A stretch of DNA of 64,000 bases from Sulfolobales archaeon (GCA_026419835.1 JAOAKQ010000002.1:1-64000), one strand, 5' to 3'. Counted from the stretch's first letter, positions 51,340-55,995 are shown. A program made the numbers and translations. The notes: a model not told the origin generated them from the letters alone.

Positions 51340-51699
51340 TTGAAGAGATCCGCTAAGAGAGAAATACTGCTTATTTTACTTCAACTCATTCCCCCGGGGA
51401 AGGTCACGACGTACGGTTCTCTAGCTAGAATTCTGAAGACCTCTCCGAGAGTTGTTGGGATGATGCTCAAGCGAAATGAGAGGCTTATCACCATACCCTG
51501 CCATAGGGTTGTGGAGAGCTCTAGGCGTTTAGGAGGGTACAGTGTGAGCGGTAAGAGTAGGCGTGACTTCAAGCTAAAGCTTCTGAAGCTGGAGGGAGTT
51601 TGCTTCAATAAGTCCAGGGTTAGCTCAGATAGCGTTATCCTACTCGACTCACTGCTGCTTCTGGAGAACCGTAGAAGTGAGTGCGAGGTTCTTCTTTAG
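51340..51699 (+). CDS. ogt: O6-methylguanine-DNA methyltransferase (short)
   Basis: This 119-residue protein contains the C-terminal active domain of MGMT only. Seen are IPPGKVTTYGSLARIL (helix-turn-helix start), RVVGMMLKRNE and the active motif IPCHRVV with acceptor Cys, then GGYSVSGKSRRDFKLKLLKLEG. The usual N-terminal RNase H-like domain (about 70-80 residues) is missing, so it is a minimal repair protein or an alkyltransferase-like relative that still keeps Cys. The start is TTG at 51340. Its 3' end overlaps the convergent gene by 51 nt. Confidence 0.85.
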   Translation: MKRSAKREILLILLQLIPPGKVTTYGSLARILKTSPRVVGMMLKRNERLITIPCHRVVESSRRLGGYSVSGKSRRDFKLKLLKLEGVCFNKSRVSSDSVILLDSLLLLENRRSECEVLL

Positions 51700-52500
51700 T
51701 TCTTCGAGTAGCTTATCAATAAATTCCTCAGAACTGTGTGTAGAAAATAGTAAAGCCTCAAGATTCCTAGTATCTCCTATACTGAATACCTTGGAGAACC
51801 TCTTGAGAGCCGCTGCTAGTAGTGGATTAACGGCCTCTTTTTCAGGTAGTGGCGTATCGAGGTATCTAATAACTGAATTTAGTGCTGAAGCTAGGACTAA
51901 GTCGAGAAGTACTTCAGAAGATGAGCCCGGTAGTACTCTAGCTAAGTTTAGCTTAGTAGACTCGTATAGTGATACTACAGCGTTCTTTAAGTTCCTGACT
52001 AGCCCCCCGGTATCTCTATGAGAAACTGATTCGAGAACTCGCTCTATTTCTTCTCTAGCAGCGCTAGTCCACGGACCTCTACCTAACTTAACTACATCAG
52101 CTAGTTCTTTAGATACTTCAGAGAGCTTCCTCCAGTTAATGAAGATACTACTAGAGAGAACTAGGAACAGCTTTATAATGGCGACCGCGGCTCTATAGAA
52201 TGCCTTAAGCACGTCACTAACGCTGTCAAAGATAGCTTGGTTTGATGCTACTGTCAGTAGTACGAGTAAACAGGAGATAGTGTCCCTATCACCTACAGTC
52301 TGAGGCTGTATTTCAACCACTTCCTTATTTATTAACCTGATAGTTAGCTTTCCAGATATCTCATCCAGCACTAAGTCCTCGATAGACTCGATTCTAAAGT
52401 ACCTCCAAGCTCTCGAAGTCTTCACAACTATGCGGTTATTCTCGATCTCTACTTGACAGCTGTAGATAGCTTTCCTATCTTTACACAGCACTTTCCTCAC
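51649..52500 (-). CDS. unknown protein of a membrane-associated operon (gene 3)
   Basis: This 283-residue protein is not recognised. Residues about 10-70 look like an all-beta module of alternating strands (YSCQVEIENNRIVVKTS, FRIESIEDLVLDE, GKLTIRLINKEVVEIQP), which could be a PH-like or GRAM-like fold. Two hydrophobic stretches follow (about 78-95 and 104-121, ending AAVAIIKLFLVLSSSIFIN), and the remainder (about 125-275) is helical. The GTG at 52500 lies inside the end of the 689-residue gene, so translation is coupled. The order, tight packing and membrane features suggest one complex with the two genes upstream. Confidence 0.6.
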   Translation of the reverse strand: MRKVLCKDRKAIYSCQVEIENNRIVVKTSRAWRYFRIESIEDLVLDEISGKLTIRLINKEVVEIQPQTVGDRDTISCLLVLLTVASNQAIFDSVSDVLKAFYRAAVAIIKLFLVLSSSIFINWRKLSEVSKELADVVKLGRGPWTSAAREEIERVLESVSHRDTGGLVRNLKNAVVSLYESTKLNLARVLPGSSSEVLLDLVLASALNSVIRYLDTPLPEKEAVNPLLAAALKRFSKVFSIGDTRNLEALLFSTHSSEEFIDKLLEELKKNLALTSTVLQKQQ

Positions 52501-54550
52501 CTCTACCGTGAATTAGAGTCCACAGAGAGCGCAGACTATCTTTAAGTGGAAATAGTTCTTCGAATTTAAAGCCCTGCTCTAATCCCTCTTTAACGTACTC
52601 CTCTATAAGAGGAACTATCTTCTCGAGTTTACGAAGATTCGATACTATGGTGCTTATGCCAGAGAAGGGCCCCATAGAATCAAAGAACACCTTCAACAAC
52701 AAGCCGAGGTCGCTCACTAAGTCAACTAGAGGAGTATCCGGATCTTCAAGTCTTGCTAGTGGTTCTCTCAGAGGTTCTAGGGAGTTTGCGAGAGCTTCAT
52801 CTACTTCCTTAACACCAAACTTCATAGTCAACACTCTACTAGTGACTGTACTTATGCTAGGTACGGCGGTCTTCTTTAAGTTTGCAACCCAGCTCAGCTT
52901 ACTCATTAAGTCGGAGCTAGCTACTGTACGTACCTGCGAAAAGTGGTCTTGGTATATTCCTAGAAGTTCTACCAGATACGGGGCTTCAACTCCGTACGCT
53001 TCAGCTATCTCCACGAACTTAGTAGCTTTAGCTACCAGGTTCTCGAAAGCTCTAGCCACTCCATCTATCTGGCGCTCTACACTGAGGAGGAGTGCCATTA
53101 TATGTGTGTAGTGCTGTCTTATGGCTCTAGCTCCAACCTCCGAGCACTTCTCTACATCTCTCAGAGCTAGCTTAAAGCCAAAAACATCGTAGTAAGCAAC
53201 TGGAATTGTAGACAGGAGGGTTCTCTCCAAGGTATCGCATTGAGTTCTGAGGGACTCCGAGATCTTCGAAATAGAGCTGTGGATTATTCCCCACATAGCT
53301 ACGTCAGACTTCGAAACCGTTACTTCATCGAGTAGCGAGAGGACGTAGGCTACCGCAGAAGTTGTGCTTAAACTAAATGATACTCTAGCTAGGTCCTGCA
53401 GTTCATTGACTATAGACCTGAGTTTCTGGTCGAGATTGGAGTTAAGAGAACTTAGTTCTCCGTGCGCACCAACTACTCTCAGGTAGTTGGGTATAGTTGA
53501 AGAGATAGCCTCACTAGATCTCTGAACGACTAGCTTGCTGTACTCAATAAACTCTCTTAAGTCCTTTAACGACTCTAGTTCGCCCTCTCTAAAGTAACTC
53601 GCAACTTCTTCGAGATGGGAAATCTTACGCTTTAAGATCTCAATGAGCTCTCTCGAATCTAGAACGTAGCTATGGGCTTCTGCGATATTCTCTGCGTAGT
53701 TCCTAACCACGCTCAGAGATAGTACGAAAAGTGGCACCAGCACGGAGGTTTGTACTAGGACGGGCACCTCCGCCTTAAATACGTACGCAGACACCAAAGC
53801 TATCGGAACGGCTATGGCAAGTCTCCTTAAAGCATCTAATAGCACTCCTCTAGCGGTTCTTTTATCTTGTAGTGGGCGTACCCTATACGCAGACCTAGTA
53901 ACTAGAAAACCGAGGAAATACGCTAGCAAAGCCACCGAGTACTTTAAGAAGACTTCGTATGCGAGAGAGTCCCTACCTACCTCCAGGAACTCGATCGGTA
54001 TAGCTCTCAGACTACTCAATTCGGTAGCTGAGAACTGTGCTGCGTATGTTGTAAGTAGTAGAAGGAGGGAGTACGTTGTTAATGACGCAGCGGCTACTAC
54101 ACTAGAAAAAAGCGTCGATAGACCGGTAAGTAGTGCTAGGGAAGTACTTAGGGAGCTGACCCACGATATAGATAGCATGTAGGTAATTAAGTAGTAGCAC
54201 GCAGTTATAGCATCATCTAGCTTCCTCAGCTTCGTTACTAGTACGTATAGAGGAACTACGAGTGTAAGAGTAAGCGATAGCATAGCTATCTCTGCGTAGA
54301 GCAGTACGTACACGACACCTCTCAGCACGTACACTACGTAGAGATAGACCACAACGAGAATAACTGAAAAAGCCGGTATTAGTCCTGGGTATTTGTGTCC
54401 AAATAGCGCGATGAGCGCTGTAGATACTAGTAGAGCTACTTGCACCTCTAAGTACACTTCAGGATACACTAGCAGAGCTACTACTCCAGCAATTACAACG
54501 TAAATAGCTACCGCGATCAGTCTTCTAACTAACAGCTCTCGAGAAGACAT
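52481..54550 (-). CDS. large unknown membrane protein (gene 2 of operon)
   Basis: This 689-residue protein is not recognised. Residues about 8-285 contain eight or nine membrane helices. The other 400 residues form a soluble, largely helical domain with coiled-coil-like stretches (about 300-360, 375-400, 560-680). No Walker, protease, glycosyltransferase or kinase motif is visible. The ATG at 54550 is 3 nt after the stop of the 330-residue gene, and its end overlaps the 283-residue gene by 20 nt. It could be a scaffold, channel or sensor; I would not name it further. Confidence 0.65.
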   Translation of the reverse strand: MSSRELLVRRLIAVAIYVVIAGVVALLVYPEVYLEVQVALLVSTALIALFGHKYPGLIPAFSVILVVVYLYVVYVLRGVVYVLLYAEIAMLSLTLTLVVPLYVLVTKLRKLDDAITACYYLITYMLSISWVSSLSTSLALLTGLSTLFSSVVAAASLTTYSLLLLLTTYAAQFSATELSSLRAIPIEFLEVGRDSLAYEVFLKYSVALLAYFLGFLVTRSAYRVRPLQDKRTARGVLLDALRRLAIAVPIALVSAYVFKAEVPVLVQTSVLVPLFVLSLSVVRNYAENIAEAHSYVLDSRELIEILKRKISHLEEVASYFREGELESLKDLREFIEYSKLVVQRSSEAISSTIPNYLRVVGAHGELSSLNSNLDQKLRSIVNELQDLARVSFSLSTTSAVAYVLSLLDEVTVSKSDVAMWGIIHSSISKISESLRTQCDTLERTLLSTIPVAYYDVFGFKLALRDVEKCSEVGARAIRQHYTHIMALLLSVERQIDGVARAFENLVAKATKFVEIAEAYGVEAPYLVELLGIYQDHFSQVRTVASSDLMSKLSWVANLKKTAVPSISTVTSRVLTMKFGVKEVDEALANSLEPLREPLARLEDPDTPLVDLVSDLGLLLKVFFDSMGPFSGISTIVSNLRKLEKIVPLIEEYVKEGLEQGFKFEELFPLKDSLRSLWTLIHGRGEESAV

Positions 54551-54553
54551 GAA

Positions 54554-55546
54554 CTACACCCTAATCACGCTTAGATGTCTCAAGTTCGTCAGTACCTCAA
54601 TAGCCTTATCTAGAGGGGCTGCCCTAGCTATAGCATCAACTCCTTCAGCAATAACGTCCCGCAAACTAAACTCTACTAGGATCCTAACGTCTAGCCTATC
54701 GTCGTTTATGAAGTTCACATTTACCTTACTTAAACTCTTCTCCACTCTCAGAACTTCCTCTTTAAAACCACTCCACACGTCTATGCTTCCTAGGATGAAG
54801 CCTTCAGCGAATAGCTTTACACGCCCGGTGTATATGAAGAACAGTAGGTCTAGAGCGTGAGTTAGGTCCCGAAATAGTGATATGGGCTCGAGTTTAAAGC
54901 AGAGAGGTACGAATGTCCCTATAGGAGCTTTTTCGTGAAGTCGAGTAATGAGTTCAGCTACACACTTCTCTACGTGGTCAGCTATCCCTACTCTAAGCGA
55001 GTTCCTCACTACTCTCTCGAAAGATAGTGGGAGAATTGTATATCTTCCTTGAGAAACTAGTTCGCTTACTAGAAAAGCCAGGTTCACCTTATCGGCGACA
55101 TCTATAGTAGTGTAATCGAAGTCTAGAAGCAGTAAGACGTGCGGCACTATTTCGTAGTTCTTCATCAACTTCAGTAATCTATGCGCTACTAGTAGAGACT
55201 CGTCTCGAGTACTAGCAATTATGCTCACGAAAGACGTTATCTTAGGACTTACGTGAGAAGCAATCAGTTCCGCCAGCGCATCGTACTCTAAGATTTCAGA
55301 TTGAGGAATTTGCGGTATCTGCTCTTTTTTCTCTAATGGCTTGCAGTTAACGTACATTAAGTTATCGAAAGTTCTTGACCTACCCTCAGGGTCGAGCACG
55401 AAGACCATCGGATATAGGGCTAAAGTTTTAGAGAATACCTGAAGGTACTTTCTATGAACTACGAGTATCTTCTCCTGACTCGTTAAGCTAACTCTATTGA
55501 GTATGTTGAGGATAAAGTTAAGTACCTCGCTCGTAGCCTTTCCCAA
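54554..55546 (-). CDS. unknown soluble protein (gene 1 of operon)
   Basis: This 330-residue protein is not recognised. It has no membrane segment of note. From about 25 to 240 it alternates hydrophobic strands and helices (KILVVHRKYLQVF, YPMVFVLDPEG, SFVSIIASTRDESLLVAHRLL, PHVLLLLDFDY), which suggests an alpha/beta fold, but no nucleotide-binding motif is clear. The start is TTG at 55546 with GGAG about 12 nt upstream and TATA-like sequences at 55562-55570 or 55585-55592. It is the first gene of a three-gene operon with the membrane protein and the PH-like protein. Confidence 0.6.
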   Translation of the reverse strand: MGKATSEVLNFILNILNRVSLTSQEKILVVHRKYLQVFSKTLALYPMVFVLDPEGRSRTFDNLMYVNCKPLEKKEQIPQIPQSEILEYDALAELIASHVSPKITSFVSIIASTRDESLLVAHRLLKLMKNYEIVPHVLLLLDFDYTTIDVADKVNLAFLVSELVSQGRYTILPLSFERVVRNSLRVGIADHVEKCVAELITRLHEKAPIGTFVPLCFKLEPISLFRDLTHALDLLFFIYTGRVKLFAEGFILGSIDVWSGFKEEVLRVEKSLSKVNVNFINDDRLDVRILVEFSLRDVIAEGVDAIARAAPLDKAIEVLTNLRHLSVIRV

Positions 55547-55629
55547 GTCTTTAAGTCTCCAGGTAAATAAAAGACTTACCGATTTAGATAAAATCGGTTG
55601 CTCTAGTTACCGGTCTCTAGTTCTCTTGA

Positions 55630-55995
55630 CTAGATCGTGCGCGTTCTCCTCTGAACGTATTTCATTAAGCATAGCTCGTTGAGGCTCTTACTGACCTGAA
55701 CTCTCCACATATGCGTCCACGTGTGCGTAGGTGCGGATGCTTGTACAGTAGTGGTCGGTGGACCGACTCTATGTAGAGATAGGTGAGCGGCTACCGCTGC
55801 TACAGCTGCTGCCACTAAGTTGCTCTCCGCTACCGCCGGTCTAGGTGCTTCTCTAACTTCAGGCCTTGGAGTGAGTACCTCCGCAGGCATGGGTGGCGGA
55901 GTAGCTTCCTTTCTCGCTGGTAAGCGCATGAAGACCTTAACTAGAGCTACTATTAGAGCTAGTATTACGAACGCTAGGAAGTAGGCGTACAGCAC
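55630..55995 (-). CDS. OadG-like decarboxylase gamma-type membrane protein
   Basis: This 121-residue protein has one N-terminal membrane helix (about residues 2-24), a Pro/Ala/Glu-rich linker (30-58) and a short Ala-rich module LVAAAVAAVAAHLSLHR (about 60-76), then a His/Trp-rich tail (THTWTHMW). This pattern is that of gamma (OadG-like) subunits that hold sodium-pumping biotin decarboxylases together, or of similar acyl-CoA carboxylase-associated proteins. The alpha and beta subunits are not in the window, and it is 84 nt upstream of the unknown operon. GTG start at 55995. The family call is moderate. Confidence 0.5.
   Translation of the reverse strand: MLYAYFLAFVILALIVALVKVFMRLPARKEATPPPMPAEVLTPRPEVREAPRPAVAESNLVAAAVAAVAAHLSLHRVGPPTTTVQASAPTHTWTHMWRVQVSKSLNELCLMKYVQRRTRTI

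Follow-up and report, generated by a model that had tools for sequence, protein, structure and literature searches.

Three tightly packed genes on the minus strand of a 64,000-nucleotide (nt) stretch of DNA from a Sulfolobales archaeon (GCA_026419835.1 JAOAKQ010000002.1:1-64000; here, "the window") probably encode a cytosolic scaffold that is anchored in the membrane. This scaffold would descend from a tubulin-based membrane machine, encoded by five genes in other Thermoproteota, and would have lost its GTPase. P1 (54554..55546; 330 residues) is a predicted degenerate protein of the tubulin/FtsZ superfamily without the T4 loop that binds guanosine triphosphate (GTP). P2 (52481..54550; 689 residues) is a large membrane protein with a helical tail, and P3 (51649..52500; 283 residues) has a predicted N-terminal PH-like domain followed by a helical domain. 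For the sake of clarity, we refer to the corresponding protein families as C, D, and E, respectively, within a locus that we call A-B-C-D-E.

The three open reading frames lie exactly as a sequence-only reading of the window had described them, with a 3-nt gap between P1 and P2 and a 20-nt overlap between P2 and P3. That reading recognized none of the proteins, and our Pfam and NCBIfam scans likewise gave no direct match of any trio member to a named family: no match passed the Pfam or NCBIfam cutoff, and the NCBIfam matches were all far below theirs. P1, P2, and P3 are nevertheless real genes, since homologs of similar length, in the same order, are present in four more species of the genus and also in eight genera beyond it.

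Conservation of the trio within one archaeal family

A first scan of genome contigs with P2 gave no match. Single-sequence searches recovered P1 and P2 from five of the seven genomes of the genus, always adjacent and with P3 next to them. Profiles combined with synteny uncovered the trio in other genera, at 15 to 20% identity. The P2 profile found a match in 24 of the 31 genomes of the family, covering 9 of its 11 genera, and a 25th genome (G029) carries P3 at a contig end. Many of these genomes are incomplete metagenome-assembled genomes, and several are 98 to 99% complete. Among weak P1 matches in other families of the order, one, in G007, was judged real.

P1, P2, and P3 are adjacent, on one strand, and in this order in all 21 family loci whose contig spans the three genes, and their intergenic gaps fall mostly between -32 and +7 nt (the sole exception is 234 nt in G007). 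The surroundings vary between genera, with radical SAM, HAD, aminopeptidase, or metalloprotease genes nearby, indicating that the trio moves as a unit. The co-occurrence proposed by the sequence-only reading as a check on its claims is thus upheld. Its suggestion of one complex is borne out insofar as the genes are kept together in every covering locus; that the proteins physically associate is what we infer from this.

The trio proteins are 51 to 61% identical to those of G001, compared with mostly 68 to 85% for the products of flanking genes, which indicates fast evolution. Codon usage had been described as similar to that of the neighbors, which is not quite the case: the GC content at third codon positions across the trio (51649-55546) is 0.41 to 0.46, against 0.46 to 0.73 in neighboring genes, and P3 is the most deviant gene, with a codon-usage correlation of 0.67 against a minimum of 0.82. 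This AT-shifted usage fits low expression or fast evolution, and the family-wide conservation argues against recent transfer. A TATA-like CTTTTATTTA stretch (window positions 55560-55600) precedes the start codon of P1 by about 20 nt, suggesting that the trio may be transcribed from a promoter of its own.

A five-gene tubulin locus in other lineages

The P2 profile gave a weak match in G138, a genome from another family of the order, to a gene whose operon also encodes a Tubulin_2 protein (PF13809, E = 1e-16). A PF13809 search across the order returned 14 genomes, none from the window's family, and the neighborhoods of these Tubulin_2 genes revealed the recurrent locus A-B-C-D-E. A (about 310 to 325 residues) is a surface protein that carries a signal, a single C-terminal membrane anchor, and a short coiled coil in the cytosol. 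B (about 880 residues) is a Tubulin_2/FtsZl1 protein with intact GLGGTGTN and GGGTGSG loops. C (325 to 345 residues) resembles tubulin and FtsZ at a distance, D (690 to 870 residues) combines membrane helices with a helical tail, and E (235 to 296 residues) is matched by the P3 family. The genes of G211 follow the order A-B-C-D-E, with C-D-E arranged as P1-P2-P3 are in the window, and the trio itself consists of adjacent homologs of C, D, and E.

A profile of D found full-length D in nine genomes of the order outside the window's family, all nine of which also carry B. The same profile recovered P2 in seven genomes of the family (E = 1e-12 to 1e-5), mostly via the C-terminal region. At the level of the phylum, a full-length B profile searched against 398 genomes detected about 20 close relatives; most of the 18 B neighborhoods that we fetched contain A and C, and 12 contain a recognized D. 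Mean column identity of B between families is 58%. PF13809 had no match in genomes of the window's family, even at 98 to 99% completeness, and the full-length B profile had none in the four family members sampled. Neither A nor B gave a match above noise in the family's trio loci, the search for A having been confined to those loci rather than whole genomes.

Profile-profile comparisons support the assignment of P1, P2, and P3 as the C, D, and E genes of this locus. P1 matched C at 92.8% (E = 4e-7, 194 columns), P2 matched D at 99.8% (E = 7e-28, 662 columns), and P3 matched E at 93.8% (E = 1.8e-7). Mismatched pairs reached at most 1.2%, except for P2-P3 at 8.7%, and the reversed decoys of C (against P1) and E (against P3) reached 0.2 to 0.3%. 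Early P1-C and P3-E comparisons with few sequences were not significant and became so only after wider sampling. The last ~60 residues of P2, its C-terminal domain, matched D on their own at 98% (E = 3e-13; reversed decoy, 0.3%), so that the match is sound and its strength should be read from this domain.

Family C as a degenerate tubulin relative

Profile searches identify family C as a divergent, degenerate relative of tubulin and FtsZ. When a C profile built without sequences from the window's family was compared with the whole PDB, the five best matches were all FtsZ, CetZ, or tubulin: CetZ (3zid, E = 7.5e-6), CetZ2 (4b45, E = 1.6e-5), FtsZ (9v7v and 2r6r, E of about 0.001; FtsZ, 0.0011), and an Asgard tubulin (9f6v, E = 0.0014). 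The alignments begin at the T4 loop and run through the next strands, and in one of the C proteins Pfam Tubulin matches weakly in the same place (E = 0.0055). With P1 and C combined in one profile, the best PDB match was still CetZ, at E = 0.0063. By sequence profile, the homology of P1 to the superfamily is thus reached through the C family only.

The GGGTGSG sequence of the T4 loop becomes SLWDGVGSAL-like in C and STRDESLLVA in the P1 of the window, so that the intact GTP-binding loop is partly degraded in the former and absent from the aligned P1 sequences. With this loop gone, P1 is not expected to bind GTP in the manner of tubulins, and we therefore do not file it as a tubulin GTPase. N155, one of the two most conserved positions of P1 (20 of 21 sequences), aligns with the Asn of an "FNA" stretch in C. 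In Foldseek, a weak structure model of P1 gave CetZ, PhuZ, TubZ, and FtsZ as its four best PDB matches, with TM scores of 0.44 at most, and of the top 50 matches 34 belong to the tubulin superfamily. The idea that P1 is a remnant of B was rejected, as the two share no profile similarity.

In families f11 and f4, the N terminus of the C proteins bears a CxxGH...CxxCG motif resembling a zinc ribbon (L163, 11976-13007; L161, 7015-8088; L140, 6383-7393); the other C proteins and P1 lack it.

The membrane and PH-like partners

The sequence-only reading assigned P2 eight or nine membrane helices and a 400-residue helical tail, in agreement with what we see across its family. Family-averaged hydropathy shows about nine peaks between residues ~11 and 280, grouped as six and then three, much as in D. 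A helical tail follows, so that roughly 400 residues lie beyond the membrane part: the tail itself spans residues ~281 to 640, and a conserved C-terminal domain, with a motif around P668, occupies residues ~640 to 689. Among 24 P2 sequences, C438 and C469 are invariant, and the distribution of charges points to a cytosolic tail. Neither P2 nor any of the D proteins scanned with Pfam matched a transporter family.

P3 yielded a better AlphaFold2 model than P1 (predicted local distance difference test [pLDDT], 73.3; predicted template-modeling score [pTM], 0.64), and its N-terminal domain is predicted to adopt a PH-like fold. Seven strands (residues ~4 to 70; strands 4 to 65) form a barrel capped at its C-terminal side by a helix (69 to 116), and a helical domain follows; Foldseek matched PH domains with a probability of 1.00 and TM scores of up to 0.67 on the target. 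The "possible beta-module" noticed earlier is therefore real and is modeled as this seven-stranded domain. The two hydrophobic stretches noted with it are probably not membrane segments, as relatives have mostly none and some one or two in a hydropathy scan, and the model places helices there. C6 and C15 are conserved in 22 of 24 sequences (two of the sequences are cut or start late in this region), and W123 is invariant. One E protein has a weak match to bPH_3 (PF14470, E = 0.06). Comparing the E profile with the PDB returned mostly designed helical proteins and was uninformative. A Pfam SopA_C match to P3 (E = 1.6e-4, below the cutoff) was dismissed as chance because it covers the PH-like domain and the helix that follows it.

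Proposed working and alternative explanations

Whether Thermoproteota possess a two-tubulin membrane cytoskeletal machine, with an active B, a degenerate C, and surface, membrane, and PH-like partners, together with a lineage that runs C-D-E without B or nucleotide, is in our judgment evenly balanced. In the full system, B would form GTP-dependent filaments at the membrane, with C as a nonhydrolyzing partner that co-assembles with the filaments or caps them. D would anchor the filaments to the membrane, E would act as a PH-like adaptor docking on the membrane or on D, and A would provide a link to the cell surface. The window's family would then have lost A and B, and its P1 would have lost the GTP-loop residues that remain in C. 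Because the family keeps C-D-E only, its complex has most likely stopped using GTP and now serves as a membrane scaffold. In this nucleotide-independent scaffold, P2 would serve as the anchor or hub, P1 as a tubulin-derived interaction module, and P3 as the PH-like adaptor. Our computations support the identity and conservation of the genes, the predicted PH-like fold, the link to the tubulin locus, and the non-detection of B; from these we infer complex formation, topology, and the scaffold role. We can only speculate that the trio acts in membrane shaping, surface-layer linkage, or division.

Several results weigh against this interpretation. P1 alone, in a direct profile search, has no significant match to any tubulin. 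Its AlphaFold2 model, for which three family sequences were used, is of low confidence (pLDDT, 50.6; pTM, 0.51), and its Foldseek scores are low, with a best E of 3.8e-3 and TM scores mostly between 0.28 and 0.44; the structure models rest on shallow alignments of three and four rows, drawn from the window and its related loci. The membrane part of P2 by itself matches D at 11.8%, which is weak though collinear, and the coiled part of the match is inflated, its reversed decoy reaching 64%. The genome search with P2 also yielded coiled-coil false positives; P2-profile matches of this kind (e.g., in L168) were dismissed as composition. The match of P3 to E is weak for some groups.

The weakness of the direct P1 evidence is what one would expect if P1 were an ordinary Rossmann-like protein with no tubulin kinship and the C genes beside Tubulin_2 were unrelated to it. 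We consider this decidedly unlikely, given that P1 matches C over 194 columns at E = 4e-7 when the reversed decoy reaches 0.2%, that the C profile reaches CetZ, FtsZ, and tubulin when P1 is left out of it and the combined profile still favors CetZ, and that even P1's own model points to the tubulin superfamily. A tubulin ancestry could also be merely historical, with P2 now working as a transporter or channel under P1 and P3 as soluble regulators. The nine membrane helices would suit such a role, and the ~400-residue tail could gate or couple transport. However, transporter-family matches are lacking among the P2 and D proteins scanned, charged residues are scarce between the membrane peaks, and the best conserved part of P2 is the predicted cytosolic C-terminal domain rather than the membrane part; present-day transport therefore strikes us as unlikely.

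The remaining alternatives accept the tubulin link and differ on the fate of B. C-D-E could be the older core, joined by A and B in other lineages, so that the window keeps the ancestral state, and the maintenance of the trio without a detectable B throughout one family is consistent with this. Yet distant families of the phylum also have A-B-C-D-E loci, whole or in part, the window's family sits inside an order that has them, and P1 lacks loop residues that C partly keeps, which suggests loss; we regard the older-core explanation as very improbable. It is somewhat unlikely, in turn, that the trio still serves a nucleotide-driven filament, formed either by a B too diverged to find or by another partner (e.g., ESCRT-III/Cdv or actin). 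Retention of the trio across nine genera with a few invariant residues would fit such a filament, and B was looked for in the family by profile only. On the other hand, B is strongly conserved between families and still went undetected in nearly complete genomes. We favor a GTP-independent scaffold derived from the five-gene locus.

Neighboring gene and related loci

An OadG-like small membrane protein (PF04277) is encoded at 55630-55995, on the same strand as the trio and 83 nt upstream of it. Across the genus the protein is conserved, sharing the motif W..QWR.QV..N.L at its C terminus, and its gene adjoins the trio in four of five species. In G004 (L013), it lies past a GGT gene on the opposite strand, and no such gene was seen beside the trio in other genera, the loci being judged by inspection. 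Synteny thus rules out the OadG-like protein as a fourth subunit, and the proximity mentioned in the sequence-only reading is incidental.

B is split in L140 (1514-4170; G138) into a 417-residue tubulin-like half and a 454-residue C-terminal half, either because the gene is genuinely split or because of a frameshift. The C gene of several lineages sits between B and D but in the opposite orientation (L159, 8759-9766; L171, 14620-15618; L231, 9086-10261), so that the order is kept and co-transcription is not. Sulfolobales also contain a second type of Tubulin_2 locus (L164, 3130-8277; L173, 2422-8707; L165, 6307-11460), in which a tubulin-like protein of 880 to 1,050 residues, in some cases with N-terminal membrane helices, is encoded beside a membrane protein of 695 to 830 residues; L164 and L173 encode an additional protein of 262 to 264 residues. 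This type resembles SSO1376 and not the A-E locus.

Comparison with known systems

To our knowledge, the usual description of Crenarchaea gives them no cytoskeleton of the tubulin type, with rare FtsZl1 proteins as the exception. If our interpretation is correct, a five-gene tubulin locus conserved across the phylum, in which a degenerate second tubulin is joined by defined membrane partners, would give FtsZl1 a testable anchoring system. Its three-gene form would be a natural experiment, comparable to pseudo-enzymes, that shows which parts stay useful without the GTPase, and several otherwise unannotated archaeal protein families gain a place.

FtsZl1 was described by Makarova and Koonin in 2010, who proposed membrane remodeling systems with vWA, GTPase, and OmpA partners; the sole crenarchaeal member that they named is SSO1376, which has N-terminal membrane helices (PMC2875224). 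A paper on Culexarchaeia reports FtsZL1 in two Sulfolobales and noncanonical FtsZ-like proteins in Bathyarchaeia (PMC9723716). The literature searched, which comprised mostly open-access main texts without supplements, yielded no account of the A-E locus or of the trio. Within that literature the trio is an undescribed system, as the sequence-only reading had proposed; what that reading could not see is that it is the remnant of a larger, tubulin-containing locus.

OadG is a neighbor of the trio in the window and is not part of the system. P3 shares the helix-capped seven strands of its N terminus with PH-like proteins (PF14470 bPH_3 and eukaryotic PH folds), from which it differs in lacking significant sequence membership and in being fused to a helical domain. 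The superfamily of CetZ and FtsZ supplies the best matches of the C profile and of the weak P1 model; the GGGTGSG T4 loop is theirs, whereas P1 is not a predicted GTPase. In contrast to the FtsZl1 systems of PMC2875224, no vWA protein, P-loop GTPase, or OmpA was recognized among the trio and sister-locus proteins scanned with Pfam, and the FtsZl1 protein itself was not detected in the window's family by the PF13809 search. The surface, pseudo-tubulin, nine-helix, and PH-like partners, for their part, do not appear in the main text of that paper. What the two share is that the sister loci encode an FtsZl1-type protein, with an N-terminal FtsZ-like domain, a coiled coil, and a C-terminal domain, beside membrane proteins.

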